This document shows positions 1 through 17,674 of a DNA stretch of 64,000 nucleotides, in pieces (the stretch's first letter is position 1; each line of letters opens with the position of its first letter). The stretch spans positions 558,001 to 622,000 of the forward strand of contig NZ_CP155449.1 of assembly GCF_040518285.1 (NCBI RefSeq), given 5' to 3'. This DNA comes from Knoellia sp. S7-12. Lineage in GTDB: Bacteria; Actinomycetota; Actinomycetes; Actinomycetales; Dermatophilaceae. The notes below the pieces were generated by a model, which saw only the letters and a program-made list of their open reading frames with translations, was not told where the DNA came from and searched no databases. The position numbers and the translations under genes are program-made.

Positions 1-532
1 GGTCGTCGTCAAGATCGACAAGACCGCCCCCACCGTGGCGTTCCATGGCGCAACCGAAGGGGCATCCGTCGGCAACGCTGGCGATGTCTCCTGGACCGCG
101 GTCGATGCGATCTCCGGTATCCAGTCGGTGACCGCGACCCTCGACGGAACCTCCGTCGCGGGCGACCAGCCGGTTGAGCTCTGGCGCCTCTCTCTCGGTG
201 CGCACACGCTCGTCGTGAGCGCCGAGGACAACGCTGGACACGTCACGAGCAAGACCCTCACCTTCACGACGACGACGTCGCTGGCCGAGCTCACCAAGCT
301 CACGCAGCGTCTTGCCGACTCCGGTGAGGTGTCTGCAGCAGGTGAGAAGCAGCTGCTCAAGCGGCTCGAGCAGGCGAAGAAGCACGCGGACGCCGGTCGC
401 GGCCACGCGGCGGCTACCCAGGTGGAGGGCTTCATCTCCCTCCTGGCCAACCGCACGCTCGTCCCCGACGTGACGGCTGCCGCAGCTTTCGACCGCGACG
501 CGAAGGCGGTGATCGCCCAGCTGCGCGGCTGA
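1..532 (+). CDS. C-terminal part of secreted protein with Ig-like and FIMAH-type domains (5' partial)
   Basis: The reading frame is open from base 2, so the gene starts outside the window and only its last 176 residues are seen. The first residues (VVVKIDKTAPTV) are typical of the strand that joins bacterial Ig-like repeats in large cell-surface or secreted enzymes. The next 80 or so residues fit one Ig-like beta-sandwich. The last 80 or so residues are helical (AELTKLTQRLADSGEV, then LLKRLEQAKKH and a late FISLLANR) and resemble the FIMAH domain found at the C-terminus of many secreted Gram-positive hydrolases. The catalytic part, if any, lies upstream, so the function is unknown. A strong hairpin follows the stop. 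Confidence 0.75.
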   Translation, partial: VVVKIDKTAPTVAFHGATEGASVGNAGDVSWTAVDAISGIQSVTATLDGTSVAGDQPVELWRLSLGAHTLVVSAEDNAGHVTSKTLTFTTTTSLAELTKLTQRLADSGEVSAAGEKQLLKRLEQAKKHADAGRGHAAATQVEGFISLLANRTLVPDVTAAAAFDRDAKAVIAQLRG

Positions 533-540
533 TCGGATCC

Positions 541-575
541 GGCCCTGCGGCGGGGACCCTCCCCGCCGCAGGGCC
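541..575 (+). terminator. Rho-independent-like terminator
   Basis: A perfect 15-bp GC-rich stem (541-555 with 561-575) with a 5-nt loop sits 8 bases after the stop of the preceding gene. There is no clear T-run, as is common for actinobacterial terminators. It separates the secreted-protein gene from the ebo-like operon. Confidence 0.75.
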
Positions 576-717: not shown

Positions 718-1884
718 ATGACCTTCACGACCGAACGCACTGGACTTTGGCTGGTCGGCGCTGGCGGATCCGTCGCGACGACCGTCGCCGCGGGCCTCGC
801 CGGCCTGCGTGCCGGTGTCGCTGCCCCCATCGGGCTCGTCACCGCGCAGGCCGCCCTCGAGGGGGCCGACCTCATCGACACCGCAGATCTCGTGACCGGA
901 GGACATGACGTCAGCAACGTCTCCCTCGCCAAGCGTGCGGAGGCCCTGGCCGCAGCCGGGGTCATCCCGCATGACCTGCCCGGCCTCATCGCGCACGACC
1001 TCGACGAGGCGTCCAGCCGCGTCCGTCCCGGCTACACGCTCGGTGCCGAGGACCAGCGCGAGGCCGTCGATCGTCTCGCGGACGACCTGCGCGAGTTCCG
1101 TGAGCGCGAGGGCCTGGCCCGCGTCGTGGTCATCAACGTCTCCTCGACGGAGGCTCCCGTCGTTCCCCAACCGGCCCACGCTGACCGTCAGGCACTCGAC
1201 ATCGCCTGGGATGCGGGGGAGTCCCCACTGCCGCCAAGCTCGGTGTATGCCGCGGCTGCGTTCGCGGCAGGCTGCGCCTTCGTGGACTTCACTCCGTCCG
1301 CGGGTGCGCGCCTTCCGGTGCTCGGCACCTTCGCCGACGAGGCGGGTATGCCGTGGGGCGGCAGTGACGGCAAGACCGGTGAGACGTTGCTCAAGTCGGT
1401 GCTCGCGCCGATGTTTGCGATGCGCTCACTCGACGTGCGCTCCTGGTCCGGAACCAATCTGCTCGGAGGCGGTGACGGCGCGACCCTGGCCTCACCCGAC
1501 GCTCGTCAGAGCAAGATCGACAGCAAGGCCGCCGGGCTCGAGGCTCTCCTCGGACACTCCGTGGAGGGCCCCCTGCACATTGACCACGTGGCCGATCTCG
1601 GTGACTGGAAGACCGCGTGGGACCACGTGACCTTCGCCGGCTTCCTCGGCACCCGGATGACGCTGCAGTTCACGTGGCAGGGGTGTGACTCCGCGCTCGC
1701 GGCACCCCTGGTCATCGACCTCGCCCGGTTGCTCGACCTGGCGATGCGCCGGGGTGAGAGTGGTCCCCTTCCCGCGCTCGGATTCTTCTTCAAGGATCCG
1801 GCAGGGCTGGACGAGCACGCGCTGGCTCCGCAGCACGACCTCCTCGTCCGGTGGGCGACGGAGGGTGCGGACGTTCGCCCATGA
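718..1884 (+). CDS. myo-inositol-1-phosphate synthase-like protein, first gene of an ebo-like operon
   Basis: 388 residues. Start chosen at ATG 718, which has GAGGAG a few bases upstream; the frame is open further upstream but without a good site. An N-terminal NAD-binding Rossmann motif (VGAGGSVATT, residues 13-22) opens the protein. Internal blocks NVSSTEAP, SDGKTGETLLKSVL and GTNLLGGGDGATL match the NAD-binding and catalytic blocks of inositol-3-phosphate synthases, which isomerise glucose-6-phosphate. It overlaps the next gene by ATGA. In cyanobacterial ebo clusters the corresponding slot is usually held by a dehydroquinate-synthase-like EboD; here a MIPS-like enzyme leads the operon. The exact substrate is not proven. 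Confidence 0.8.
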   Translation: MTFTTERTGLWLVGAGGSVATTVAAGLAGLRAGVAAPIGLVTAQAALEGADLIDTADLVTGGHDVSNVSLAKRAEALAAAGVIPHDLPGLIAHDLDEASSRVRPGYTLGAEDQREAVDRLADDLREFREREGLARVVVINVSSTEAPVVPQPAHADRQALDIAWDAGESPLPPSSVYAAAAFAAGCAFVDFTPSAGARLPVLGTFADEAGMPWGGSDGKTGETLLKSVLAPMFAMRSLDVRSWSGTNLLGGGDGATLASPDARQSKIDSKAAGLEALLGHSVEGPLHIDHVADLGDWKTAWDHVTFAGFLGTRMTLQFTWQGCDSALAAPLVIDLARLLDLAMRRGESGPLPALGFFFKDPAGLDEHALAPQHDLLVRWATEGADVRP

Positions 1885-2819
1885 CGTCCCTGCGTGACCT
1901 GGCAGAGCTCGTGCGAGCGCCCGCGGGCCTGACCGTGCCCAGCGACACCCTCGCGGGTGCCGCCAGCGCAGGGTGGCCTGCGGGTCGCCGCACTGCTCTG
2001 CTGCCCCTTGCCTCGGTTTCGCTCTATTGGGCCGGGATGGCCCTCAACGACTGGGCCGACCGAGACCTGGACGCCGTCGAACGCCCCGAGCGCCCCATCC
2101 CCTCCGGTCGAGTGACCCCGGGGACCGCACTGGCTCTCGCCACGGGGCTCACCGCCGCCGGGGTGGGCCTCGCCGCCGTCGCAGGAGGTGCGCCGGCCGC
2201 TGCGGTGGCGGGCGTGCTGTCCGGTGCCGTCTGGACCTATGACCTCTCGGCGAAATCAGGGCCCGGGAGCACCGCCGTCATGGCGAGTACCCGGGGGCTC
2301 GACGTCCTCCTGGGTGCGGCGGCCGGCGGCCTGCCTGCCCTTCGACACGCAGTCGCCCCTGCAGCCCTTCTCGCTGCGCACACCGCGGGCGTCACCGCTT
2401 TGAGTCGCGGTGAAGTCCATGGGACGAAGCCTGAGACTGCCCGAGGCGCCGTCAGTCTGACGGCAGTCGTCAGCACCCTCGTTCCCGTCCTCGCGTCATC
2501 ACGCGCCCTGACCCTGGACCGCTCGCGGCCAGAGGCGCGCGCGGGCCAGGGTCGTGGAAGCCGGGACGGCTGGGTGGCGATGGGCGTCGCGATCGCCGCG
2601 GCAACGGCATACGCAAGCTCTGTCGGACGGGCGCAGGCTGCGGCGGCGACCGATCCCGGCGCGGCGACGACCCGCCGTGCCACGGTTGCCGGGATCAAAG
2701 GGATGGTGCCGCTCCAGTCGGCACTGGTCGCCTCGGCGGGTGAGGCACGGGCGGCTCTGGCACTCGGGGCGCTCTCGTGGGCCGCACGGTCAGCGATGCG
2801 CAAGGGGTCACCGACGTGA
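1881..2819 (+). CDS. eboC: UbiA-family prenyltransferase, EboC-like (SCO3242 type)
   Basis: 312 residues, a polytopic membrane protein. ATG 1881 overlaps the upstream stop (ATGA). Residues near 55-65 carry the aspartate-rich motif NDWADRDLD, which in UbiA enzymes binds Mg-prenyl-diphosphate, followed by RPERPIPSGRV, typical of the family. A second, weaker region (YDLSAKSGPGS) stands where the second aspartate-rich loop would be. Hydrophobic Ala/Val/Leu-rich segments make up most of the rest. In ebo clusters this gene is EboC. The natural acceptor is not known. The gene is translationally coupled on both sides. Confidence 0.85.
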   Translation: MTSLRDLAELVRAPAGLTVPSDTLAGAASAGWPAGRRTALLPLASVSLYWAGMALNDWADRDLDAVERPERPIPSGRVTPGTALALATGLTAAGVGLAAVAGGAPAAAVAGVLSGAVWTYDLSAKSGPGSTAVMASTRGLDVLLGAAAGGLPALRHAVAPAALLAAHTAGVTALSRGEVHGTKPETARGAVSLTAVVSTLVPVLASSRALTLDRSRPEARAGQGRGSRDGWVAMGVAIAAATAYASSVGRAQAAAATDPGAATTRRATVAGIKGMVPLQSALVASAGEARAALALGALSWAARSAMRKGSPT

Positions 2820-3679
2820 GTGGGTTGCGATTCGGCTACGGACTCAACGGGTTCACCGACCACCGGCTGCCCGACGCCCTCGCGGTTCTTGCCGACCTGG
2901 GCTACGACGGCGTGGCGATCACCCTCGACCACGCGCACCTCGACCCCATCGGGGCCGGACTCGCACAGCGCGTGGCACTGGCCGCGCGGCTGCTGGCCCG
3001 CCACGGACTCGACGTCGTTGTCGAGACCGGCGGTCGCTATGTGCTCGACCCCCGACGCAAGCACCACCCGACCTTCGTGAGCGACGAGGGCCGGGAGCGT
3101 CGTATCGACCTCGTTGCCACCGCCCTGCGCATCGCGCCCGATCTGGGTGCTCGCGTCGTCTCGTGCTGGAGCGGCACGTTGCCGGAGTCGGCCACCGCCG
3201 AGCAAGGGCGGGCTCGGGTCGATCACGCGGTGACCAGTCTGTTGCCCGTCGCCGAGGCCGCCGGGGTGACGCTCGCGCTGGAGCCGGAGCCGGGGATGTT
3301 CCTCGAGCGGGTAGGAGACGTCGTCGGGCTTCTCGACCGGTTGGACCGCCCCGCGGCACTCGCGCTGACCATCGACGTCGGTCACCTCACCTGCACGGAG
3401 GACGAGCCCCCGGGGTCGGTGATTCGGGGGGCCGGGCACCTCGTCGCCAACGTGCAGATCGATGACATGCGCCGCGGGGTCCACGAGCATCTGCCGTTTG
3501 GCGACGGCGAGGTCGACCTGCCCGACGTGCTCGCGGCTCTGGGCGACATCGGCTACGGCGGGCTCGTGCACGTCGAGCTGCCCCGGCACTCGCATGCCGC
3601 ACCGGTGCTCGCCGAGCGGAGCCTGCGCGCCCTGCGCCTTGCCGAGGCCGACGCTCGCCAACTCGAGAAGAGGATCTGA
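2816..3679 (+). CDS. sugar phosphate isomerase/epimerase-like TIM barrel
   Basis: 287 residues. GTG 2816 overlaps the previous stop (GTGA) and has AAGGGG upstream; the open frame further 5' lies inside the prenyltransferase. The sequence is a xylose-isomerase-like TIM barrel: FGYGLNGFTDHRL at the N-terminus, then the usual metal-ligand regions LALEPEPGMF, IDVGHLTCTED, NVQIDDMRRGVHEHLPFG and GLVHVELPRHSH. These supply the Glu/Asp/His ligands expected for a divalent-metal isomerase. Such a protein accompanies UbiA, EboA and EboB in actinobacterial ebo-like clusters. The substrate is unknown. A second member of the fold ends the operon at 7905-8912. Confidence 0.82.
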   Translation: MSGLRFGYGLNGFTDHRLPDALAVLADLGYDGVAITLDHAHLDPIGAGLAQRVALAARLLARHGLDVVVETGGRYVLDPRRKHHPTFVSDEGRERRIDLVATALRIAPDLGARVVSCWSGTLPESATAEQGRARVDHAVTSLLPVAEAAGVTLALEPEPGMFLERVGDVVGLLDRLDRPAALALTIDVGHLTCTEDEPPGSVIRGAGHLVANVQIDDMRRGVHEHLPFGDGEVDLPDVLAALGDIGYGGLVHVELPRHSHAAPVLAERSLRALRLAEADARQLEKRI

Positions 3680-3680
3680 C

Positions 3681-4265
3681 ATGGGATGGAAGGACGACGC
3701 CAGGCACGTGGTGGCGAACGACGCCGAGGCGGTGCTCAGCCTTTTCCCGGGTGCGGCCCGTCACGCCCGCGCGGAGGGGGACGATGGCGAGGCCGTGCGG
3801 GTCGAGCTGCTCGAGGCGATTCCCGGCGAACTCGACGACGTCGTGAGGATCACCTCGACGCTCTACAGCCGGGGCGACAGTGCCGAGAAGCAGGCGGTGC
3901 TCGCGGCGCTACCCAGCCTTGACCGGGCGACCACCGCGCGACCAGCCGTCGGCGATGCGCTCCTTCTGCTCGTGCGAGATGCGTTGCGCACCAATGACAC
4001 TCGGCTCGTCGCCCGTGCCCTCGGGGCGTATGCCGCCACGCACCTCGACGACGCCGCCTGGCGCCAAGGAGTGGTCAAGGCGATCTTCATGGGAATCCCC
4101 CTCGACACCGTCGCCGACCTCGAACGACGCACCGACGACGAGCTGCGCCGGATGGTGAGTGACTTCATCGACGAGCGACAGGCGGCGGGGCGCGACGTGC
4201 CGGCCGACGCACAGCGGATCGTCTTCACCGACCAGGACACCTCAACCCCCGGGAGCAGCAGATGA
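3681..4265 (+). CDS. eboA: EboA domain-containing protein
   Basis: 194 residues, mostly alpha-helical, no membrane segments or signal peptide. ATG 3681 lies one base after the previous stop. The C-terminal half is the recognisable EboA block: a segment around AYAATHLDDAAWRQGVVKA, then IFMGIPLDTVADLERRTD, and a final DELRRMVSDFIDERQAAGR. EboA has no known enzymatic activity; in cyanobacteria the ebo genes are needed to get the scytonemin precursor to the periplasm. Overlaps eboB by ATGA. Confidence 0.88.
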   Translation: MGWKDDARHVVANDAEAVLSLFPGAARHARAEGDDGEAVRVELLEAIPGELDDVVRITSTLYSRGDSAEKQAVLAALPSLDRATTARPAVGDALLLLVRDALRTNDTRLVARALGAYAATHLDDAAWRQGVVKAIFMGIPLDTVADLERRTDDELRRMVSDFIDERQAAGRDVPADAQRIVFTDQDTSTPGSSR

Positions 4266-5209
4266 GAATCTTCGACCCGCATATCCACATGACCTCGCGG
4301 ACGACCGATGACTACGAGCGGATGCACGCCGCCGGGGTGCGCGCGGTCGTCGAGCCGTCGTTCTGGCTCGGGCAGCCGCGCACCAGTGTCGAGACGTTCT
4401 GCGACTACTTCGACGCGCTGCTCGGGTGGGAGCCCTTCCGGGCGCAGCAGTTCGGTATTCAGCACTTCGCGACCATCGGCCTCAACCCCAAGGAAGCCAA
4501 TGACGAGCGCTGCCGCGCGGTCCTGGACGAGTTGCCCCGCTATCTCGTCAAGGACCGGGTCGTCGCCGTCGGCGAGCTCGGCTACGACTCGATGACTGCC
4601 GAGGAGGACGAGGTCTTCGCCCACCAGCTGGGTCTGGCGCGGGAGCACGGGCTGCCCGCGCTCGTGCACACGCCTCACCGCGACAAGCTTGCTGGCACGC
4701 GGCGCACGCTTGACGTCGTGCGCGAGTCGGGGCTTCCCGCCGAACGGGTTCTCGTCGACCACCTCAACGAGGTCACGGTCGGCGTCGTCGCCGGAAGCGG
4801 TTGCTGGATGGGGTTCTCGATCTATCCCGACACCAAGATGGACCCGCAGCGCATGGTCGCGATCCTGCAGGAGCACGGCACCGAGCGGATGGTCGTCAAC
4901 TCGGCCGCCGACTGGGGGCGCAGCGACCCGCTGCTCACCGTGCGTACGGCCGAGGCCATGCTCGCCGCAGACTTCTCCGGCGACGACGTCGACAAGGTCC
5001 TGTGGCGCAACCCGGTGGAGTTCTACGGCCAGAGCGGGCGCCTCGACCTCGAGGACGTCGACCTGTATGCCGTCGCCTCACCTACGGATTCACCTACCGC
5101 CTCCCCGGAGGGCGAATTCGTGGGCGCGTCGGCCGGTGCGCCCATGGGCGCGCCGACGGGTGCAACCTTCGAGGGCAACTCCGTGCTCCGCGGCTCCAAG
5201 GAGAGCTGA
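4262..5209 (+). CDS. eboB: TatD-family metal-dependent hydrolase, EboB-like
   Basis: 315 residues. The start overlaps eboA (ATGA). The N-terminal FDPHIHMTSR carries the HxH metal motif of the amidohydrolase/TatD superfamily; GELGYDSM, ALVHTPH and NSAADWGRSDPL continue the barrel, supplying the Glu, His and Asp ligands. The last 45 or so residues, rich in Ala, Gly, Pro and Ser (GASAGAPMGAPTGA), are a low-complexity tail that looks like an accessory extension. In ebo clusters this is EboB. Substrate unknown. One base separates it from eboE. Confidence 0.85.
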   Translation: MRIFDPHIHMTSRTTDDYERMHAAGVRAVVEPSFWLGQPRTSVETFCDYFDALLGWEPFRAQQFGIQHFATIGLNPKEANDERCRAVLDELPRYLVKDRVVAVGELGYDSMTAEEDEVFAHQLGLAREHGLPALVHTPHRDKLAGTRRTLDVVRESGLPAERVLVDHLNEVTVGVVAGSGCWMGFSIYPDTKMDPQRMVAILQEHGTERMVVNSAADWGRSDPLLTVRTAEAMLAADFSGDDVDKVLWRNPVEFYGQSGRLDLEDVDLYAVASPTDSPTASPEGEFVGASAGAPMGAPTGATFEGNSVLRGSKES

Positions 5210-5210
5210 A

Positions 5211-6404
5211 GTGCGCCTCCTCCATGCTGACGGCACAGTCGTACACCTCGCCTACTGCACCAATGTGCATGCCGGCGACAGCCTCGACGACGTCCTCGCC
5301 CACCTCGACCGCTTCGTGCTGCCGGTGCGCAAGCACCTGGGGTCCGATCTCCTCGGGGTCGGTCTGTGGCTCGCAGCCCCGGCCGCCCACGAGCTCGCGC
5401 AGGACGCCACGGCCACGAATGGGTTGCGCCGAGCCCTCACCCATCGGGGCCTGGAAACAGTGACGCTCAACGGTTTTCCCTACCGCGGCTTCCAGGAGCC
5501 GGTGGTCAAACAGCGCGTCTACCACCCCGACTGGTCGGAGCAGGAACGACTGGACTACACGGTCGACTGCGCTGCGGTGTTGGCCCAGCTGCTGCCCGAC
5601 GACGCGGCCCGGGGGAGCGTGTCGACCCTGCCGTTCGCGTGGCGCACGCCCTGGGACGGTGGTCAGCACCAAGCCGCTCTGGACAACCTGGGTCGCCTCT
5701 CTGACGCCCTCGAGGGCATGGAGACCCGCACCGGCCGCGTCGTGCGCGTCGGTCTGGAACCCGAGCCCGGGTGCGTGGTGGAGACGACGGCCGAGGCAGT
5801 GGAGCGGTTGGCCGGCGTCAACGCCGAGCGCATCGGAGTCAGCCTCGACCTCTGCCACCTCGCGGTCGGCTTCGAGGACCCGGCGGAGGCACGTGATCGC
5901 ATAGCGGGGGCGGGGCTCCCGGTCACCAAGGCCCAGATCTCTGCAGCCGTGCACGCCGACGACCCGACTGATCCCGCGACCCGGCGGGCACTGGCCGAAT
6001 TCGACGAGGTGCGGTTCCTCCACCAGGTGCGCGGACGGCATACCGACGGGTCGATCTCTGCGCGCGACGACCTTCCGGAAGCCCTCGGCGGCAGCGACCC
6101 TCTCGAGGAACTCTCCGACGACGGTTCAGCCGTTCCGTGGCGCGTGCACTTCCACGTGCCACTCGATCTCGATCCCGAACCGCCGCTTCGCGCGACCCGC
6201 GACCACACCGTGGCCTCGCTCGATGCCCTCGTCGGTGGCGAGCACGCCGTGACCGATCACCTCGAGGTGGAGACCTACACCTGGGGTGTGCTGCCCGACG
6301 CGGCCCGCCCCCGCACCGACGATGACCTCTCCCGGCGGATCGCCGGCGAGATCGCCTGGGTGCGCGACCAGCTGCTCGACCTCGGACTGAAGGAGACCCC
6401 GTGA
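5211..6404 (+). CDS. eboE: EboE-like metabolite traffic protein (TIM-barrel)
   Basis: 397 residues. GTG 5211 is used, one base after the eboB stop; the frame runs open through eboB but has no other plausible start. The N-terminus (HLAYCTNVHAGDSLDDVLAHL) is the hallmark of EboE. A xylose-isomerase-like barrel follows, with VGLEPEPGCVVETTAEAV, VSLDLCHLAVGFEDP, KAQISAAVHADDP and WRVHFHVPLDL carrying the presumed metal ligands. Its role in the Ebo route is not biochemically known. It overlaps the next gene (GTGA). Confidence 0.88.
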   Translation: MRLLHADGTVVHLAYCTNVHAGDSLDDVLAHLDRFVLPVRKHLGSDLLGVGLWLAAPAAHELAQDATATNGLRRALTHRGLETVTLNGFPYRGFQEPVVKQRVYHPDWSEQERLDYTVDCAAVLAQLLPDDAARGSVSTLPFAWRTPWDGGQHQAALDNLGRLSDALEGMETRTGRVVRVGLEPEPGCVVETTAEAVERLAGVNAERIGVSLDLCHLAVGFEDPAEARDRIAGAGLPVTKAQISAAVHADDPTDPATRRALAEFDEVRFLHQVRGRHTDGSISARDDLPEALGGSDPLEELSDDGSAVPWRVHFHVPLDLDPEPPLRATRDHTVASLDALVGGEHAVTDHLEVETYTWGVLPDAARPRTDDDLSRRIAGEIAWVRDQLLDLGLKETP

Positions 6405-7834
6405 CCACGACCGCCCCCCGCCAGGTTGCCCCCGTACCCGCGGGCGGAGTAGCGCCCACGCCAGTGCTCCTGCTGGACGTCGTCGGACTCACGCCCCGCG
6501 CACTCAACGACATGCCCCGCCTCCGGGAGCTCGCCGAGGCGGGAAGCCGCGCCACTCTGGGCACGGTCCTGCCGGCCGTCACCTGCTCGGTGCAGTCGAC
6601 CATCCTCACGGGCACGCTGCCGAGCGAACACGGCGTCGTCGGCAACGGCTGGTTCTTCCGGGACCTCGGCGAGATCATGTTCTGGCGCCAGCCGAACAGC
6701 CTCGTCGAGGGCGAGAAGCTCTGGGACTCGCTGCGTCGCGCCTACCCCGATGCCAAGGTCGCCAACGTGTGCTGGTGGTACGCGATGGGCATGGACGTCG
6801 ACACGGTCGTGACTCCTCGGCCCGTCTATCACGCCGACGGACGCAAGAGTCCTGACTGCTACACCCGTCCCACCTGGCTGCGCGATGAGCTGACCCAGGC
6901 CCTTGGCCAGTTCCCGTTGTTCCAGTACTGGGGGCCCACAGCGGCCATCGCGTCATCGCGGTGGATCGTCGAGGCGACCCGGCGGATCATGCCCCACCAC
7001 GACCTCACGATGGCCTACGTCCCGCACCTCGACTACGACCTCCAGCGGTTCGGGCCGCGGTCGCCGCAGGCCTCCGCCGCAGCGGCAGAACTGGACGCCG
7101 TGCTCGCGCCCCTGCTCGACGACGCGGCCCGGCTCGGCATCGAGGTGGTCGTGCTCAGTGAGTACGGCATCACCGAGGTCGACCGCCCGGTTCACCTCAA
7201 CCGGGTGCTGCGACGCGCCGGGCTGCTCGAGGTGCACACACAGGAGGGCATGGAGTACCTGGACCCGTGGGCCTCGCCAGCCTTCGCCGTGGCCGACCAC
7301 CAGGTTGCGCACGTCTACATCCAGGACGCCGAGCGACACGAGGAGGTTCGCACCCTTCTCGAGGCCACTCCCGGTGTGGAGCAGGTGCTCGATCGCGAGG
7401 CCCAGGCGGTGCACGGGCTCGACCACGAGCGCAGCGGGGACCTCGTCGTCGTCGCCGAGGACCGGGCCTGGTTCACCTACTACTACTGGCTCGAGGACGC
7501 TCGGGCTCCCGACTTCGCTCGCGGCGTCGAGATCCATCGCAAGCCGGGCTACGACCCCGCTGAACTGTTCTTCGACCCTGCCGACAGGACGGCCAAGGCG
7601 CGTGCCGGGCTATCGCTCGTGCGAAAGAAGGTCGGACTGCGCTACTCGATGAAGGTCGTGCCGCTCGACGCCCGCTGGGTGAAGGGAAGTCACGGGCGGC
7701 TGCCGGAGGACCCGGCCGACGGACCTGTCCTGATCACCTCCACGCCGGGTCAACTGCGTGAGACGGTGGCAGCGACCGAGGTGCGTGACCTCGTCCTGCG
7801 GGCCGCGGGTGTCGAGGCTGCCTTGACCCACTGA
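6401..7834 (+). CDS. eboF: alkaline-phosphatase-superfamily protein, EboF-like (nucleotide pyrophosphatase/phosphodiesterase fold)
   Basis: 477 residues, GTG 6401 overlapping the eboE stop. No signal peptide is seen, so the product is probably cytoplasmic. The block [19 protein letters not shown] matches the nucleophile region of NPP-type phosphodiesterases, and [12 protein letters not shown] supplies an Asp/His pair. The usual SDHGM metal motif reads SEYGI here (about 7154-7168), so one aspartate is Glu and the histidine is Tyr; [11 protein letters not shown] follows later. This may be normal for EboF or may signal changed metal binding. Last of the seven tightly coupled ebo-like genes. Confidence 0.82.
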
Positions 7835-7904
7835 CGGATCGACCAGCATTGCGTTGCAACCACTTTCACACTCCCGCACCACCCCGATTGCTAGGAGCGC
7901 CACG

Positions 7905-8912
7905 ATGACCCGTCCGATCACCCTCTTCACCGGCCAGTGGGCCGACCTGCCCTTCGAAGAGGTGTGCCGTCTGGCCGCTTCGTGGGGCTACGACGGCCTT
8001 GAGATCGCCTGCTGGGGCGACCACTTCGAGGTCGACCGCGCACTGGCCGAGGACGACTATGTGGCCGGACGTCGCGAGATCCTCGAGCGTCACGGACTCG
8101 GCGTCTGGGCGATCTCGAATCACCTTGTGGGACAGGCGGTCTGCGACGACCCGATCGACCAGCGCCACAAGGACATCTTGCCGGCGGACATCTGGGGTGA
8201 CGGCGACCCCGAGGGTGTGCGGCAGCGGGCCGCTCAGCGGATGGCCGACACCGCGCGGGCTGCGGCCAAGCTCGGCGTCGACGTCGTCATCGGCTTCACC
8301 GGGTCGGCCATCTGGAAGTACGTCGCGATGTTCCCGCCGGTGTCGGCGCAGACGATCGACGCGGGCTACCAGGACTTCGCCGACCGGTGGAACCCGATCC
8401 TCGACGTCTATGACGAGGTCGGTGTGCGGTTCGCCCACGAGGTGCACCCGAGCGAGATCGCCTACGACCACTGGACGACGGTGCGCACCCTCGAGGCGAT
8501 CGGGCACCGTCCGGCGTTCGGGCTCAACTGGGACCCGTCGCACATGGTCTGGCAGGACCTCGACCCCGTCGCGTTCATCTGGGACTTCCAGGATCGGATC
8601 TATCACGTCGACTGCAAGGACGTGAGGATGCGAGTGGGCAACGGCCGCAACGGAAGGCTGTCGTCCCACCTGCCCTGGAACGACCCCCGCCGCGGTTGGG
8701 ACTTCGTCTCGACCGGACATGGCGACGTGCCGTGGGAGGACTGCTTCAGGACGCTCGGTGCGATCGGCTACTCCGGCCCCATCTCGGTGGAGTGGGAGGA
8801 CGCCGGCATGGACCGCCTCGTCGGCGCGGCCGAAGCTGTCGGCTTCGTGCGTCGACTCGCGTTCGAGGCTCCGGAGGCCTCCTTCGACTCAGCCTTCAGC
8901 TCGGGTGACTGA
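7905..8912 (+). CDS. sugar phosphate isomerase/epimerase-like TIM barrel
   Basis: 335 residues. Start ATG 7905 has AGGAG five to nine bases upstream; it lies 70 bases after eboF, so it may have its own ribosome entry but probably shares the transcript. [20 protein letters not shown] and [17 protein letters not shown] are typical of the family; [44 protein letters not shown] and [12 protein letters not shown] carry the four expected metal ligands. It is more like the inositol-catabolism/dehydrogenase-associated isomerases than the one at 2816. Given the MIPS-like first gene, a substrate of inositol or sugar-phosphate type is possible; this is inference. Confidence 0.82.
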
Positions 8913-8962: not shown

Positions 8963-10507
8963 GTGACTGAGAACGCGACCCATCTCGACGAGATTCGTGC
9001 CGGCTACTCCTTCGAGGGCCCCGCCCTCGAGTTCGGTGCGGCCGTCATCGACGACACCGCCCACCCCGACACTCCGGTGCGCATCCCGCTCGCCGTCCTC
9101 AACCGCCACGGACTCGTCGCCGGCGCCACCGGCACCGGCAAGACCAAGACTCTCCAGGTCATGGCCGAGCAGCTGAGCAGCCAGGGCGTCCCGGTCTTCC
9201 TCGCCGACATCAAGGGCGACCTGTCCGGCATGGCCAGCCCGGGCGAGGCCAGCGACCGGACCACAGCGCGAGCCAAGGATGTCGGGCAGGACTGGCAGGC
9301 CACGGCATACCCGACGGAGTTCTTGTCGCTGGGTGGACAGGGCAAGGGCATCGCGATTCGCGCGACCATCACGGACTTCGGTCCCACTCTGCTCGCCAAG
9401 GTGCTCGGCCTCAACGACACGCAGGAGTCGAGCCTTGGTCTCGTCTTCCACTACGCCGACAAGAACGGCCTCGCGCTCCTCGACCTCAAGGACCTGCGGG
9501 CCGTCATCGCGCACCTCGTGAGTGATGAGGGCAAGCCCGAGCTCAAGGCTCTCGGTGGCCTCTCGTCCGCCACCGCCGGTGTCATACTGCGCGAACTCAT
9601 CGCCTTCGAGGACCAGGGCGCCGACGCGTTCTTTGGTGAGCCGGCGTTCGACACGGCCGACCTGATGCGCATGACCCCCGACGGCAAGGGTCTGGTCACC
9701 TGCCTCGAGCTGCCCGGGGTGCAGGACCGTCCCGCGCTCTTCTCGACCTTCCTCATGTGGATGCTCGCGGACCTCTTCCACGACCTGCCCGAGGTCGGCG
9801 ACATCGACAAGCCCAAGCTCGTCTTCTTCTTCGATGAGGCGCATCTGCTCTTCGCCGATGCGAGCAAGGCCTTCCAGGACGCCATCGAGCAGACCGTCCG
9901 CCTCATCCGCTCCAAGGGTGTTGGCGTGTTCTTCGTGACGCAGTCGCCCAAGGACGTCCCCGCCGGCGTGCTCGGTCAGCTCGGCAACCGGGTGCAGCAC
10001 GCCCTGCGCGCTTTCACACCCGACGACGCCAAGGCCCTCAAGGCGGCGGTGCGGACCTACCCGCACAGTCAGTATGACCTCGAGAAGCTCCTCACCTCGC
10101 TCGGCACCGGCGAGGCCGTCATCACCGTCCTCTCCGAGAAGGGTGCACCGACGCCGGTGGCCTGGACGCGGATGCGCGCGCCGCAGTCGCTCATGGCCCC
10201 GTCGACCGAGGCGGTCATGGACCAGACGATCGCGGCGTCCTCGATCGCGGCGAAGTACGCCGAGGTCGCTGACCGTGAGTCGGCCTACGAGAAGCTCGCG
10301 GCCCGCGTGGCTGCAGCTCCGGCCGAGGCTGCGCCCCAGCAGACTCCTGCCCCCACGGTCGCGAAGAAGGCGGCCGCGCCCAAGGAGGACCCGGGCATGG
10401 TGAGTCAGGTCATCAAGTCGAGTGCCTTCAAGTCGGCCCTGCGTTCAGCGGGCACGGTCATCGGACGCGAGATCACGCGCTCGCTCTTCGGCACGCGCCG
10501 CCGCTGA
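8963..10507 (+). CDS. HerA-helicase-like DUF853 ATPase (YjgR family)
   Basis: 514 residues. Walker A GATGTGKTKT is near residue 52, after LNRHGLVA; Walker B is FFFDEAHLLF near residue 292. An early AEQLSSQGVPVFLADIKGDL block and a long central region match the DUF853/YjgR family of HerA-like motor ATPases. The last 80 residues are Ala/Pro/Lys-rich and then basic (EITRSLFGTRRR). The family is widespread and its cellular role is not settled. Single gene; it ends against a hairpin shared with the convergent gene. Confidence 0.85.
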   Translation: MTENATHLDEIRAGYSFEGPALEFGAAVIDDTAHPDTPVRIPLAVLNRHGLVAGATGTGKTKTLQVMAEQLSSQGVPVFLADIKGDLSGMASPGEASDRTTARAKDVGQDWQATAYPTEFLSLGGQGKGIAIRATITDFGPTLLAKVLGLNDTQESSLGLVFHYADKNGLALLDLKDLRAVIAHLVSDEGKPELKALGGLSSATAGVILRELIAFEDQGADAFFGEPAFDTADLMRMTPDGKGLVTCLELPGVQDRPALFSTFLMWMLADLFHDLPEVGDIDKPKLVFFFDEAHLLFADASKAFQDAIEQTVRLIRSKGVGVFFVTQSPKDVPAGVLGQLGNRVQHALRAFTPDDAKALKAAVRTYPHSQYDLEKLLTSLGTGEAVITVLSEKGAPTPVAWTRMRAPQSLMAPSTEAVMDQTIAASSIAAKYAEVADRESAYEKLAARVAAAPAEAAPQQTPAPTVAKKAAAPKEDPGMVSQVIKSSAFKSALRSAGTVIGREITRSLFGTRRR

Positions 10508-13470: not shown

Positions 13471-14355
13471 GGAACCCATCGTGGTGATGAGGATGGTGTC
13501 GCGCGCAAGCACGGTCGCGCGGTCGTAGCGGGTCGCGTGGACAAAGATGTTCTGCGCCGTGGGCAGGGCCGAGCAGACCACGATGGCGAGCAGAGCGTGA
13601 CCGTCGACGCCGAGCGCAAAGTGCGCCACGGCATACGCCACGAGCGGTTGCAAGATCAGCTTGAGCAACGACGTCGTCGCCAGCTCGCTCACCGACCCCG
13701 CCGTGCCCAGTCCGGGACCCAGTCGCAAGGCGATGCCGTAGGCGACGAGCATCGCCGGGACCGCCAGGTTGCCCAGGAGCTCGAGCGGGTTGCCGACGAA
13801 GTCGGGCAGGGTCCACCCGGTCACCGACAGCAGCAGACCGATGAGCGACCCGACGGTGAGCGGGTTCTTGAAGGGGCGCGTGACGAGCTGCACGAGCGAT
13901 GGCGGGCGGCCCAGTGCGTCAGCATCCAGCAGTGCCAACGCAATGGGCTGCAGGACGAGGAGCTGGAGCAGGAGGGTCGGCGCGACGTAGGACGCGTCGC
14001 CGAGGACGTAGCTCGCCACCGGAATACCCAGGTTTCCTGCATTCACGTATGCCGCCGAGAGGGCTCCGATCGTCGCGTCGCCCAGGCGTCGCCGCCAGAC
14101 AAAACGGGCGAGGGAGACATAGATGACCAGCGTGACGAGGATGGCCGCGGTCGTGGCGACGAGGTTGGCCGACAGGACGTCGTGAACATCCGCCCGGCTC
14201 AACGTCATCACCATGAGGGCCGGTGAGCCGACGTAGAACGAGACCTGTGACAGGGCCCGCTGGGCGGTCAGGTCGAGGATGCGCAGGTGTGCGAGGAGAG
14301 CGCCGACGCCGATGACGACGGCGATCGTGGCAAACCCCGTGAAGACTCCCTGCAC
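13432..14355 (-). CDS. AEC-family (auxin efflux carrier-like) transporter
   Basis: 307 residues, GTG start at 14355, with about ten membrane segments. The early block HLRILDLTAQRALSQVSFYV and LVATTAAILVTLVIYVSLAR, the mid YVNAGNLGIPVASYVLGD with the NxGN element, and the late AYGIALRLGPGL and VCSALPTAQNIFVHATRY match the two mirrored halves of AEC permeases, which export or exchange organic acids such as malate or malonate. The substrate is unknown. The 3' end carries one copy of the 55-bp direct repeat. Confidence 0.85.
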   Translation of the reverse strand: MQGVFTGFATIAVVIGVGALLAHLRILDLTAQRALSQVSFYVGSPALMVMTLSRADVHDVLSANLVATTAAILVTLVIYVSLARFVWRRRLGDATIGALSAAYVNAGNLGIPVASYVLGDASYVAPTLLLQLLVLQPIALALLDADALGRPPSLVQLVTRPFKNPLTVGSLIGLLLSVTGWTLPDFVGNPLELLGNLAVPAMLVAYGIALRLGPGLGTAGSVSELATTSLLKLILQPLVAYAVAHFALGVDGHALLAIVVCSALPTAQNIFVHATRYDRATVLARDTILITTMGSVPVILVVAALLG

Positions 14356-14364
14356 CCGGTCAGG

Positions 14365-16275
14365 CTAGGTGGATCGGCGCAGGACGGTCGCCAGCGTCTC
14401 AAGGACGGACGCGTCCTCGATGGTCCCGGGCACCACCGGCGTGCGGCCGTCGGCGATCTCGCGCATCGTCTTGCGCAGGATCTTGCCCGAGCGGGTCTTG
14501 GGCAGCGCGGCCACCACGTCGACCTGCCTCAGGGCGGCCACGGGACCCACCTCGTCGCGGACCCGCTGGACGAGTTCGGCGCAGATCCGCTCGCCCTCGG
14601 CGCCTGTCCCGTCCACTCCACCCTTGAGGACGACGAGCCCTCGCGGCACCTGCCCCTTGAGCTCGTCGGCGACACCGATGACCGCGCACTCGGCGACGTC
14701 CTGGTGGCCGGCGAGCGCCGCTTCGATCGAGCCGGTCGACAGCCTGTGCCCGGCGACGTTGAGGATGTCGTCGGTCCGCCCCATGACATAGAGGTAGCCG
14801 TCCTCGTCGACATATCCACCGTCACCGGACACGTAGTAGCCGGGGAACGTCGACAGGTAGCCGTCGACGAAGCGCTGGTCATCGCCCCAGAGCGTCGGCA
14901 ACGTCCCCGGCGGCATCGGCAGCTTGAGGCAGATCGCACCCTCCTGGCCCGCAGGCAGGGGCGCACCGGTCTCGTCGAGGATCGCCACGGCATACCCCGG
15001 CACCGGCACCGACGGAGAACCCGGCTTGAGCGGCATCGGTTCGAGTCCGCGCAGGTTGGACGCGATCGGCCAGCCGGTCTCGGTCTGCCACCAGTTGTCG
15101 ACGACGGGAACCCCGAGCCTCGACGTCGCCCACTCGTAGGTGTCGGGGTCAAGGCGCTCACCTGCGAGGAAGACCGTGTCGAGCGAGGAGAGGTCGTGCT
15201 CGCGCATCAGCTCACCCTGGGGGTCCAGCCGTTTGATCGCCCGGTATGCCGTGGGCGCAGTGAACATGGCCCGCACCTTGTGCTCGGCGATGAGTCTCCA
15301 GAAGGCTCCGGCGTCCGGTGTGCCGACCGGTTTGCCCTCGTAGAGAACGGTGGTGGCGCCGGTGAGCAGTGGCGCATAGACGATGTAGGAGTGGCCGACG
15401 ACCCACCCGACGTCGCTCGCGGTGAACCACACGTCGCCCGGGTGGATGCCATAGATGTTGTCCATCGACCAGCGCAGGGCGACCGCGTGACCACCGTTGT
15501 CCCGGACGATTCCCTTGGGTCGCCCGGTGGTGCCGGACGTGTAGAGGACATAGAGCGGGTCGGTCGCCGCGACCTCGACGCAATCGGCAGGCTCGGCGTC
15601 GGCGACGAGTTCGTCCCAGTCCATCTCCTCCCAGTCCGTGTCGCGCTCGCCGACCGCGGCCCGGGCCTGCTCGCGCTGGAGGACGATGACCGATTCGGGC
15701 TTGTGCGAGCTGCGGTCGAGGGCTGCGTCGAGCATCGGCTTGTATTCGACGACGCGGCTCGGCTCGATCCCACAGCTCGCGGCGACGACGACCTTGGGCT
15801 GCGCGTCCTCGATGCGGGCGGCCAGCTCGGCCGGGGCGAACCCGCCGAACACCACCGAGTGGATGGCGCCGAGCCGGGCGCACGCGAGCATCGCGATGAC
15901 GGCCTCCGGCACCATCGGCATGTAGATGACGACCCGGTCGCCTTTCTCGACACCGAGACTCGCCAACGCACCAGCGAACGTCGCGACGCGACCCAGCAGG
16001 TCGGCATACGTGATGGTCGTTGTCGTTGCGGTGACGGGACTGTCGTGGATGAGCGCGGGCTGCTCGCCGCGCCCGTCGCGGACGTGGCGGTCGAGCGCGT
16101 TGAAGCAGGTGTTCAGGGTCGCACCGGTGAACCAGCGATGGAGCGGTGCGTTCGTGCTGTCGAGGATCGTCGTCGGGGGAGTGATCCACTCGATCCGCTC
16201 TGCGGCCCGTCGCCAGAACTCGTCCGGATGCTCCAAGGACTGGGCGTATGCCGCTGCGTAACCGTTGGGGGTCAT
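14365..16275 (-). CDS. prpE: propionyl-CoA synthetase-like acyl-CoA synthetase
   Basis: 636 residues, normal length for PrpE/Acs. It opens with YAAAYAQSLEHPDEFWRRAA, typical of PrpE. The AMP-binding signature is VLYTSGTTGRPKGIVRD, followed by WWQTETGWPI, YYVSGDGGYVDEDGYLYV and the C-terminal lysine motif PKTRSGKILRKTMRE, whose first lysine in KILRK is the catalytic and acetylation-regulated residue in the family. It converts a short-chain acid, ATP and CoA to acyl-CoA. Propionate rather than acetate preference is inferred from overall similarity. No 2-methylcitrate genes are nearby. Confidence 0.88.
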   Translation of the reverse strand: MTPNGYAAAYAQSLEHPDEFWRRAAERIEWITPPTTILDSTNAPLHRWFTGATLNTCFNALDRHVRDGRGEQPALIHDSPVTATTTTITYADLLGRVATFAGALASLGVEKGDRVVIYMPMVPEAVIAMLACARLGAIHSVVFGGFAPAELAARIEDAQPKVVVAASCGIEPSRVVEYKPMLDAALDRSSHKPESVIVLQREQARAAVGERDTDWEEMDWDELVADAEPADCVEVAATDPLYVLYTSGTTGRPKGIVRDNGGHAVALRWSMDNIYGIHPGDVWFTASDVGWVVGHSYIVYAPLLTGATTVLYEGKPVGTPDAGAFWRLIAEHKVRAMFTAPTAYRAIKRLDPQGELMREHDLSSLDTVFLAGERLDPDTYEWATSRLGVPVVDNWWQTETGWPIASNLRGLEPMPLKPGSPSVPVPGYAVAILDETGAPLPAGQEGAICLKLPMPPGTLPTLWGDDQRFVDGYLSTFPGYYVSGDGGYVDEDGYLYVMGRTDDILNVAGHRLSTGSIEAALAGHQDVAECAVIGVADELKGQVPRGLVVLKGGVDGTGAEGERICAELVQRVRDEVGPVAALRQVDVVAALPKTRSGKILRKTMREIADGRTPVVPGTIEDASVLETLATVLRRST

Positions 16276-16371
16276 GTCGCCATCGTGGTGGGTAGGTGGC
16301 GCGTGGACCAGCCGTTCGACGAGCGGAAAGCCGAGCGGTGGTGGCGTTGCGGCGAGTGGGAGAAGTGCGGC

Positions 16372-16740
16372 TCAGCCCCAGTTCGCGGCCTGGGTGAGGC
16401 AGAACGGGTGACCACTCGGGTCGAGCAGGACGCGCCACGTCTCGCCGGGCTGCTCGTCGGGCAGGGTCGCGCCGAGTGCGACGCACTCCTCGGCTGCCGC
16501 ATCGATGTCGTCGACGGCGAGGTCGAGATGGAACTGCTTGGTGCCGTGCTCGTTGGGCCAAGCGGGAGGTTCGTGGTCCGGGAGGGTGCCGAAGCCGATC
16601 GCGTTGTCGGGGCCCGTGAGCATCGCGTAGCCGTCCCCATCGTGTGCGACGTCCCAGCCGAGGACGGCCGACCAGAAGGCGGCGTCGCGACTCGCGTCGG
16701 AGCTGTCGAGGCTGAGCATCTTGAGGGCGGCGATGGCCAT
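16372..16740 (-). CDS. VOC-family (glyoxalase/bleomycin-resistance fold) protein
   Basis: 122 residues. ATG 16740 with AGGAGACC just upstream. LKMLSLDSSDASRDAAFWSA, LGWDVAHDGDGYAML, QFHLDLAVDDIDAA and LLDPSGHPFCLTQ are the typical two beta-alpha-beta-beta-beta units of the VOC fold, with the C-terminal DPSGHPFCL block of the glyoxalase-like subfamily. Specific function unknown. Divergent from the AraC regulator, with which it may share its 58-bp promoter region. Confidence 0.8.
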   Translation of the reverse strand: MAIAALKMLSLDSSDASRDAAFWSAVLGWDVAHDGDGYAMLTGPDNAIGFGTLPDHEPPAWPNEHGTKQFHLDLAVDDIDAAAEECVALGATLPDEQPGETWRVLLDPSGHPFCLTQAANWG

Positions 16741-16786
16741 GGGGTCTCCTGGGGTCGAGATGGGGTGCGTTGTCGCCCAGCCTGCC

Positions 16787-16792
16787 TAGGCT
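16787..16792 (+). promoter_or_regulatory. -10-like TAGGCT, possible leaderless start
   Basis: TAGGCT ends 6 bases before GTG 16799, in the short divergent gap between the VOC and AraC genes. No Shine-Dalgarno sequence precedes the GTG. Confidence 0.4.
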
Positions 16793-16798
16793 GGGTCG

Positions 16799-17674
16799 GT
16801 GCTCGATAGGACAAACCCGCCACCGACGGCGACCTTCGCGGGGATCCTGCGGCCCGACCAGCTCGCGGAGTACGTCCAGGTGAGGCGCTGGCCCGCCGCT
16901 CCCCGGGTGTCGCACTGGGTCGAGAACCACTGGTCGCTGCGCTGGGACCTGCCCGAGGGTGCGTCGTTCTCGAGTGAGGTGCTGCCGCATCCGACCTGCT
17001 CACTCACGGTGGAGCGCGGCGATCACCCGCGGCCGGCGCTCGCGGGTGAGGAGGTTGTCGTCACCGGCGTCGTGACGCGGCGCTTTGACGTCGAGATCCG
17101 CGGGAGTGGCCGGGTGGCCGGTCTGCGGTTTCGGCCCGGAGGGTTGGCGGCGCTCAGTGGTCATTCGGCGAGGTCGTGGACCGACCGCACCGTTGCCGCT
17201 GCCGACGTCACGTCCCCCGAGATCGTCGAGGCCCTGGCTTTGCTCGATCTGGACGGCGACGCGGGTGCCATCGAGGCGGGGATGGTTGCGGTGGAGGCGG
17301 CGTTCCCGGAGCTCCCAGAGCACCCGGAGCTCCCGGAGGGGAGGGCGGCTGATTCCCGCTACGCCCGCGTGCTGCGGGTGGTGTCGGACATGCTCGACGA
17401 CCGGTCGATCCTCGCCGTGACCGATCTCGAGGAGCGGCACGGGATCTCGGCGAGGACGCTGCAGCGTGACTTCCTCCATTACGTCGGGGTCGGGCCGAAG
17501 TGGGTGCTTGGGCGCTATCGGATGCATGACGTCGTTGTCGAGCTCGATGGTGGCTATGACGGGTCGCTGACCGACCTCGCGCTGCGCCACGGCTGGTACG
17601 ACCAGGCCCACTTCACCCGCGACTTCACGGCGCTGGTGGGTGTGCCGCCCAGCCGCTATCGGGCCCAGAACTGA
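16799..17674 (+). CDS. AraC-family transcriptional regulator
   Basis: 291 residues. The N-terminal part (RPDQLAEYVQVRRW, HWVENHWSLRWDLP) is the effector/dimerisation domain seen in a group of actinobacterial AraC proteins. The C-terminal 100 residues carry the double helix-turn-helix: HGISARTLQRDFLHYVGV and WYDQAHFTRDFTALVGVPPS, with the closing YR. Divergent to the VOC gene, so the pair may be a regulator/target unit. No ligand is evident. Confidence 0.85.
   Translation: MLDRTNPPPTATFAGILRPDQLAEYVQVRRWPAAPRVSHWVENHWSLRWDLPEGASFSSEVLPHPTCSLTVERGDHPRPALAGEEVVVTGVVTRRFDVEIRGSGRVAGLRFRPGGLAALSGHSARSWTDRTVAAADVTSPEIVEALALLDLDGDAGAIEAGMVAVEAAFPELPEHPELPEGRAADSRYARVLRVVSDMLDDRSILAVTDLEERHGISARTLQRDFLHYVGVGPKWVLGRYRMHDVVVELDGGYDGSLTDLALRHGWYDQAHFTRDFTALVGVPPSRYRAQN

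Follow-up and report, generated by a model that had tools for sequence, protein, structure and literature searches.

An actinobacterial ebo-type operon with an inositol-phosphate-synthase-like cyclase in the place of EboD

Introduction

What can an ebo gene cluster make when its cyclase, EboD, is missing? The question is raised by a seven-gene operon of the soil actinobacterium Knoellia sp. S7-12, located at positions 718-7834 of the stretch analysed here (the window), which comprises 64,000 nucleotides and corresponds to positions 558,001-622,000 of the 4.16-Mb one-contig genome. An earlier note, made from the letters of the window, had described the locus as a complete ebo-like metabolite pathway. 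The classical eboABCDEF clusters of Bacteroidetes, Cyanobacteria and eustigmatophyte plastids, as presented in PMC5133447, have EboA, EboB, a protein of the UbiA type, EboE, EboF and tight clustering in common with the window operon. The latter differs from them in the absence of EboD and in the presence of a cyclase resembling myo-inositol-phosphate synthase (MIPS), of an additional TIM-barrel protein (T3) and of a UbiA protein of the SCO3242 family. The findings support an ebo-type operon, an actinobacterial variant in which EboD has been replaced by the MIPS-like cyclase, called INO in the following.

Layout of the operon

The seven genes are located on the plus strand and separated by junctions of -4, -4, +1, -4, +1 and -4 bases. 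An eighth gene (7905-8912) starts 70 bases past the end of gene 7. The arrangement described in the earlier note, with seven coupled genes and an eighth after them, was confirmed. The genes of the operon are:

718..1884, plus strand, gene 1, INO, ebo-linked MIPS-like sugar-phosphate cyclase replacing EboD (PF07994, PF01658, match to the A. fulgidus MIPS 1u1i)
1881..2819, plus strand, UbiA-superfamily membrane prenyltransferase of the SCO3242 family, counterpart of EboC (PF01040 73 bits, NF045897)
2816..3679, plus strand, T3, xylose-isomerase-like TIM barrel and near-constant partner of INO (profile matches, cluster survey)
3681..4265, plus strand, EboA (NF035938 151 bits, cut-off 50)
4262..5209, plus strand, EboB, TatD-like metal-dependent hydrolase (PF01026 53 bits)
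5211..6404, plus strand, EboE, xylose-isomerase-like TIM barrel (NF035939 419 bits, cut-off 250)
6401..7834, plus strand, EboF, type I phosphodiesterase/alkaline-phosphatase superfamily with altered metal site (PF01663 217 bits)

The EboA and EboE assignments, on which the earlier note had staked its reading, both hold, as do its EboB and EboF calls, and the family matches confirm an ebo-type operon. Its description as complete does not stand, EboD being missing and another cyclase occupying its place. The list of products had also left out gene 1, the most informative gene of the set. The second gene, named UbiA (EboC), indeed encodes a UbiA-family protein; it passes the SCO3242 model NF045897 (337 bits, cut-off 260) and stays under the cut-off of the model for EboC itself (NF035940, 117 bits, cut-off 250).

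The seven genes have a GC content of 0.68-0.74, and of 0.77-0.89 at third codon positions (GC3), in a window of GC 0.689. There is no outlier among them, and composition thus gives no sign of a very recent transfer. The nearest named relatives of gene 1, EboE and EboA come from Knoellia, Oryzobacter, Phycicoccus and similar genera.

Gene 1 and the missing EboD

INO exceeds the cut-offs of both PF07994 (157 bits) and PF01658 (104 bits). It is closest by sequence to the archaeal-type MIPS of A. fulgidus (1u1i, E 1.7e-59), and Ari2 (6k96) was matched as well. The equivalog model of the mycothiol Ino1, TIGR03450, yielded 39 bits for INO, far under its cut-off of 638. A canonical mycothiol Ino1 is encoded elsewhere in the genome, at 4,084,132 (711 bits with TIGR03450), so that INO represents a second, divergent MIPS-like protein.

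The active site of INO is intact. Seven residues (D217, N247, K266, K270, K298, D324 and K359 in the numbering of the window's INO protein), which we take to have catalytic roles, are the same in all 44 ebo-linked INO proteins and in all 30 other archaeal-type MIPS compared; the latter come from Actinomycetota outside the organism's own class and are assumed to be household enzymes. Two of the active-site lysines align to alanine in 3qvw and 3qvx. INO thus has the sequence family and the checked catalytic residues in common with the archaeal-type enzymes (A. fulgidus Ino1, 1u1i/3qvs) and Ari2 (6k96). It differs from the 30 comparison proteins in that the INO sequences, which were picked from ebo loci, form a separate grouping in the tree (SH-aLRT 91 for INO, not starred, and 98 for the others, by a quick method that gave long-row warnings, L076 and L072 included) and in 14 positions that are consistently different between 43 INO and the 30 other sequences. 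Ari2, a MIPS orthologue, is described in PMC11188666 as producing a different cyclitol phosphate, and membership of the MIPS family alone therefore leaves the product of INO unfixed.

EboD was not found by profile scans of the operon genes. The whole genome contains a single match to the dehydroquinate (DHQ) synthase family, at 1,903,031 (151 bits). Being the sole member found, it is assigned to aroB, an assignment that is not proven. An EboD elsewhere in the genome was rejected on this ground. The lone match lies 1.34 Mb from the operon.

Distribution of the two cyclases

To what extent INO and EboD exclude each other was read from 140 loci typed by BLAST against reference proteins at a threshold above 60 bits. 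They comprise the window, 12 plasmid loci drawn from 48 plasmid records with a match, 31 loci of a 398-genome Actinomycetota sample (32 EboE places minus the window's own), 16 loci of a family sample (17 EboE places minus the window's own) and 80 loci of a contig scan, the best 80 of 587 ranked by likeness to the EboE of Azospirillum and hence biased towards the EboD type. A locus was counted as a typed cluster when it carried at least three of the A, B, C, E and F genes, which applies to 107 of the 140. INO alone is present in 45 of these clusters and EboD alone in 58; none has both, and four (L048, L093, L094 and L096) have neither. T3 follows the same division, with an occurrence in 44 of the 45 INO clusters (L059 is the exception) and in none of the 58 EboD clusters, plus one in L048, where INO is missing. 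No INO-type cluster was found outside the Actinomycetota among the non-actinobacterial plasmid and contig-scan loci typed, the contig-scan loci having the EboD bias mentioned above. One actinobacterial cluster, L056 from genome G241, is of the EboD type and is devoid of both INO and T3. When INO or EboD is mapped onto a tree of EboE (130 of the 140 rows), a single change suffices, and the swap therefore seems to go back to one event with subsequent spread in the Actinomycetota.

The same association is seen genome by genome. Of the 398 Actinomycetota genomes, 30 encode EboE and 88 have a PF07994 match, and in the organism's own order and class the EboE-positive and the PF07994-positive genomes are the identical 23. 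The canonical Ino1 of the Knoellia genome is not detected by PF07994, so that this test separates the two kinds of MIPS. In 28 of the 30 genomes with EboE, the distance from INO to EboE is no more than about 6 kb, the exceptions being G241, the only one with no PF07994 match, and G279, in which an 88-residue INO fragment adjoins EboE and a full PF07994 match is found on another contig. Extra PF07994 matches away from EboE occur in G271 and G160, one of them strong (185 bits, G271). In other classes, strong archaeal-type MIPS are present in many genomes; of these classes, G045, G066 and G085 have a second, weaker match that adjoins EboE, and G126, G194 and G341 have one match each, adjoining EboE. 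The possibility that gene 1 is the household Ino1 was rejected on three grounds, namely the canonical copy elsewhere, the tracking of ebo by INO and its separate position on the tree.

The remaining 33 of the 140 loci carry EboE and at most one further core gene, and six of them have EboD. The other 27 lack EboD and have at most two core ebo genes, and EboE is the sole ebo gene listed in 24. These 27 loci include L041, L106, L117, L133, L149, L204, L205, L209 and L211, and some are contig ends. EboE adjoins transketolase, E3-binding, FMN_dh and aldehyde dehydrogenase genes in L205, and a sugar ATP-binding cassette (ABC) transporter and a BKACE gene in L106; NF035939 scores above its cut-off for at least some of the lone-EboE loci.

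Two further observations concern individual clusters. L048 (about 13800-16800) is the second ebo cluster of genome G109 and, as described above, has T3 and no INO. Upstream of it lie a gene of the inositol-monophosphatase family and, 5' of the UbiA gene, a CrtO-like open reading frame (144 bits, cut-off 1000). A third cyclase was not found in the reading frames scanned there, one overlapping plus-strand frame having been left out. The EboD-type plasmid clusters of Aureibacter (L037:3835-5103) and Mycetohabitans (L043:4987-6069) both have a ferritin-like and a large hypothetical protein upstream.

Features of the other Ebo proteins

Only L037, among five EboD-type UbiA proteins scanned, passed the cut-off of NF035940, which indicates that the EboC model is narrow. 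The motif N-D-x-x-D-x-x-x-D is kept in the UbiA proteins of both types (35 INO-type and 53 EboD-type rows). At the site of the second motif, where a further Asp-rich motif is expected, the proteins read [SA][RK]xE. A few have Gln instead of the basic residue, and the Glu is present in 35 of 35 INO-type and 52 of 53 EboD-type rows.

The EboA homologues carry PF28008. EboB shows no change at its metal-site residues (HxH, E, H, H, D) in any of 45 sequences of the INO type and 53 of the EboD type. For EboE, a solved relative was not found by sequence search.

EboF was compared with phosphonoacetate hydrolase (PhnA), whose metal ligands are given in PMC7916636 as Asp29, Thr68, Asp250 and His251 together with Asp211, His215 and His377. 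The residues were read from an alignment to PhnA that is weak (37 bits). EboF has Gln at the position of His215 and Tyr at that of His251 in all sequences (45 of 45 INO-type and 56 of 56 EboD-type), and Glu at that of Asp250 in all 45 INO-type and 53 of 56 EboD-type sequences, three of the latter having Asp. The metal-site threonine is retained in 45 of 45 INO-type and 54 of 56 EboD-type sequences (two gaps). The Asp of the first motif, which lies outside the PhnA alignment and whose equivalence to Asp29 is assumed, is retained in 38 of 45 INO-type sequences and is mostly Asn or Leu in the EboD type.

Genomic neighbourhood

Three genes and a hairpin flank the operon:

35..532, plus strand, C-terminal end (FIMAH domain) of a secreted GSDH-type protein, a linked neighbour (PF07995 93 bits, PKD, CBM_6, FIMAH)
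541..575, plus strand, GC-rich hairpin of 16 pairs in the spacer that separates gene 1 from the GSDH gene (-39.9 kcal/mol, z -6.9)
7905..8912, plus strand, T8 (gene 8), neighbouring TIM barrel outside the ebo unit, relative of 2zds and 8ro4
8963..10507, plus strand, HerA-like ATPase, right flank for the empty-site comparison (weak HerA-type matches below cut-offs)

The hairpin resembles a terminator, lacks a T tail and was equalled in stability by none of 200 shuffled sequences, which suggests that the GSDH gene and INO belong to separate transcripts. In the promoter and terminator scan a sigma-70-like site was not found, and the terminator matches were uninformative.

Upstream of the operon lie the secreted GSDH-type protein and a sugar set composed of an ABC transporter of the monosaccharide type, a Gfo/Idh/MocA protein and a TIM-barrel protein (TIM0). 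The observation of the earlier note that no biosynthetic core genes adjoin the operon agrees with what was identified over roughly 10 kb on the upstream side and with the gene that follows downstream. The GSDH-type protein (1124 residues; open reading frame L237:9159-12533, equal to G000:C1:555158-558532) contains GSDH, PKD, CBM6 and FIMAH domains and, judged by eye, an N-terminal signal sequence.

The GSDH gene is a recurrent companion of INO. Of the 29 INO-type genomes in the Actinomycetota sample, at least 21 have a PF07995 match no more than 12 kb from EboE, compared with about 0.6 expected from copy number. These genomes span five of eight families (f1, f8, f10, f20 and f34), and species within one family are not independent in this count. 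The eight genomes with no listed nearby GSDH are G132 and G085, in which contig ends lie near the cluster, G279, in which the GSDH match adjoins the displaced INO copy, and G193, G351, G125, G231 and G341. A BLAST search with the window's GSDH was positive for 11 of 12 family-sample INO loci and for none of three plasmid INO loci; among the 58 EboD-type clusters this sole query gave one strong match (L142) and four weak ones (L083, L085, L098 and L115). The gene order varies. Most loci from the own family read TIM0-GSDH-(INO to F)-T8, many f8 genomes read GSDH-(INO to F)-TIM0, some of them with T8 beyond GSDH where the stretch taken extends so far, and f10 reads (INO to F)-GSDH-T8. The Knoellia genome contains three GSDH matches, the window's one included. 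PqqE gave no match above cut-off in this genome and none in 14 control genomes (a scan with no positive control).

On a Streptomyces plasmid (L039:2963-4162, 13125-14603), an INO-type operon is flanked by a ScyD/ScyE-family protein (NF033206, 253 bits) and, some 1.5 kb beyond the operon, by a multicopper oxidase, which echoes the layout of the scytonemin genes outside the cyanobacteria.

Which of the neighbours belong to the ebo unit can be deduced from relatives that lack it. Of 148 genomes of the family, 14 encode EboE. Of the nine genomes of the genus, only the window's own does so, and the HerA-like ATPase is present in all nine. T8 is kept near this ATPase gene in four of the eight same-genus genomes devoid of EboE; gene 8, which the earlier note had placed with the operon, was therefore rejected as a member and is a resident neighbour. 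In three of these genomes (L230, L232 and L233), the sugar-binding protein, Gfo/Idh/MocA, TIM0 and T8 genes are uninterrupted, and T8 lies 1 to 2 kb from the ATPase gene, as compared with 50 bases in the window. In the window genome, a block of about 10.9 kb with the GSDH gene and the seven ebo genes is found between TIM0 and T8. L231 has T8 and no TIM0, and T8 was not found in L229, L234, L235 and L236 within the stretch taken (only 6 kb upstream for L236). This comparison shows gene 8 as resident and the GSDH gene as travelling with the ebo block; it is compatible with gain and with loss of the block alike, which cannot be told apart. T8 and TIM0 also have relatives next to INO-type clusters of other families, and both are treated here as linked neighbours of the ebo unit.

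T8 is close to the solved protein 2zds (582 bits) and related to the 2-hydroxy-3-keto-glucal hydratase 8ro4 (132 bits), and the Gfo/Idh/MocA protein matches levoglucosan dehydrogenase with 379 bits, under the cut-off of 650. The sugar genes resemble the oxidation-elimination-hydration of anhydrosugars described in PMC7676230. Since the set is intact in three same-genus genomes that lack ebo, it is not counted as part of ebo.

Proposed pathway and alternative explanations

In our preferred reading, the operon would encode a variant ebo pathway for a prenylated cyclitol lipid, a reading of product and steps from gene content that we consider slightly more likely than not. INO would convert a hexose 6-phosphate, most likely glucose 6-phosphate, with NAD+ into a cyclitol phosphate. 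T3, EboE, EboB and EboF might process this compound by isomerisation or epimerisation, hydrolysis and removal or transfer of the phosphate, with EboA as a putative helper in the conversion, and the membrane UbiA protein would add a prenyl chain. By analogy with Nostoc, the resulting lipid could serve as carrier or cofactor for something that acts outside the membrane; we regard this role as considerably less probable than the lipid itself. An export role in Knoellia would likewise be taken over from a single cyanobacterium. It is the conserved gene content that argues for a prenylated cyclitol as the putative product. An isoprenoid-cyclitol product of EboD and EboC was already proposed by the authors of the 2016 study (PMC5133447). 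The recruitment of an unrelated cyclase by an EboD-less lineage would be expected if a cyclitol is needed, and the swap makes glucose 6-phosphate a serious candidate substrate.

Several points weigh against this pathway. To our knowledge, no ebo cluster has an identified product. MIPS retains the phosphate of its substrate, while cyclases of the DHQ-synthase type shed it (the latter according to PMC5133447), and the two cyclases are thus not strictly interchangeable. UbiA relatives from EboD-type clusters were reported to farnesylate quinoline acids in vitro, not cyclitols (PMC9235831). Prenyl transfer is not assured, since the second Asp-rich motif of UbiA is missing in both cluster types, and EboF, in which three of the PhnA-type metal ligands are missing, is perhaps no phosphatase. 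INO is absent from L048, where the remaining ebo genes are present, and 3 of 52 contig-scan clusters have neither cyclase in the stretch taken; of these L096 is a short contig and L093 and L094 are not. As the swap traces to a single event, the mutual exclusion rests on one event and not on many. The reaction of T3 and the chemistry of the pathway are weak points.

The recurrent linkage with GSDH allows for a different explanation, in which the product of INO-type ebo clusters would assist the adjoining secreted GSDH-type protein as its cofactor, in its maturation or as a partner in electron transfer, and ebo would serve extracellular beta-propeller oxidoreductases generally, GSDH in actinobacteria and ScyE in cyanobacteria. 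The association across five families with rearranged gene order, its recovery by BLAST in the family sample, the lack of a PqqE match with the reservation made above, and the ScyD/ScyE-family protein beside a plasmid INO locus would all fit. This is countered by the eight of 29 genomes with no nearby GSDH (three of them explicable by contig ends or a displaced INO), by the negative plasmid loci, by the rarity of GSDH at EboD clusters, by GSDH proteins that exist apart from ebo, as in the own genome, and by the non-independence of species within a family. The Nostoc data, moreover, show a transport-like defect and not a loss of ScyE activity. We judge this explanation distinctly unlikely, and much the same, if anything with slightly less confidence, holds for a version that unites it with the cyclitol pathway, in which the prenylated cyclitol would be no cargo and would serve secreted beta-propeller oxidoreductases as a lipid cofactor or carrier of their own, its ring being supplied by either of two unrelated cyclases. 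Less improbable, and still unlikely, is a module for metabolite export, as in the earlier note, by which ebo would move a cargo of, for this version, aromatic or polyketide nature across the membrane. It draws on the Nostoc mutants (PMC6282210), and would agree with the Streptomyces plasmid locus L042, which adjoins FAD mono-oxygenase and methyltransferase genes, and with L041, whose lone EboE sits among type II polyketide genes; within the stretch examined, however, the window's operon has no identified natural-product gene next to it, and the recurrent neighbours are sugar-related or GSDH genes.

The neighbouring sugar genes could also indicate that the operon extends their pathway, which looks like one for anhydrosugars or 3-keto-glycosides, with ebo handling a cyclitol glycoside or its release. 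The levoglucosan dehydrogenase match, the sugar-type transporter and the relationship of T8 to the glucal hydratase point in this direction, as do relatives of several sugar genes that flank the INO clusters L053, L054, L060, L069 and L070. Yet the binding protein, dehydrogenase, TIM0 and T8 persist in L230, L232 and L233 in the absence of ebo, several INO-type loci have no sugar set in the stretch taken, and a UbiA prenyltransferase fits no obvious step of simple catabolism, all of which makes this extension highly doubtful. Finally, gene 1 looks like a competent MIPS and might be an ordinary supplier of inositol for phosphatidylinositol or mycothiol that is in the operon by chance. With a canonical Ino1 elsewhere in the genome, an INO that tracks the ebo genes genome by genome and separates from other MIPS, and no typed cluster in which it accompanies EboD, such a household role is very improbable.

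Relation to known systems

The ebo cluster of Nostoc punctiforme (PMC6282210) has five gene families in common with the window operon. Mutants in these genes confined the scytonemin monomer to the cytoplasm, and a lipid carrier was speculated; eboD is not among the genes analysed in the text of that study. A prenyl-cyclitol carrier of this kind would fit both systems. They differ in that the Nostoc genes are tied to scytonemin genes and the Knoellia operon to a secreted GSDH and sugar genes. The ubiA-297 clusters of Flavobacteria and Saccharomonospora (PMC9235831) also have a UbiA-like enzyme inside an ebo cluster and include an actinobacterial genus; the enzymes tested, as reported there, came from Maribacter, Zobellia and Algoriphagus and were not of the actinobacterial type.

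Parts of the picture have been reported before. EboD-less clusters were described for a Leeuwenhoekiella and two Planctomycetes (PMC5133447), an ebo cluster of an actinobacterium for Saccharomonospora (PMC9235831) and a fusion of EboA to a xylose-isomerase-like domain for Actinobacteria (PMC5133447). The NCBI annotation names inositol-3-phosphate synthase, SCO3242 family prenyltransferase, EboA and EboE side by side. No text joining ebo with inositol-phosphate synthase was found in the open-access literature searched, and the word inositol is absent from the main text of PMC5133447, PMC6282210 and PMC9235831. The gene content is thus publicly visible, and the reading as a swap of cyclases seems to be the new part.

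Significance

The product of ebo has been an open question since 2016, and in the text of the ebo papers (PMC5133447, PMC6282210 and PMC9235831) the Ebo enzymes appear with no known physiological substrate. The altered metal site of EboF, common to both cluster types, questions its label as an ordinary phosphodiesterase. MIPS normally acts on glucose 6-phosphate, which calls into question the assumed EboD substrate, sedoheptulose 7-phosphate. The replacement of EboD by a cyclase of well-understood family chemistry provides independent comparative support for a cyclitol core of the putative ebo product, and INO represents a tractable entry point to the chemistry of ebo.

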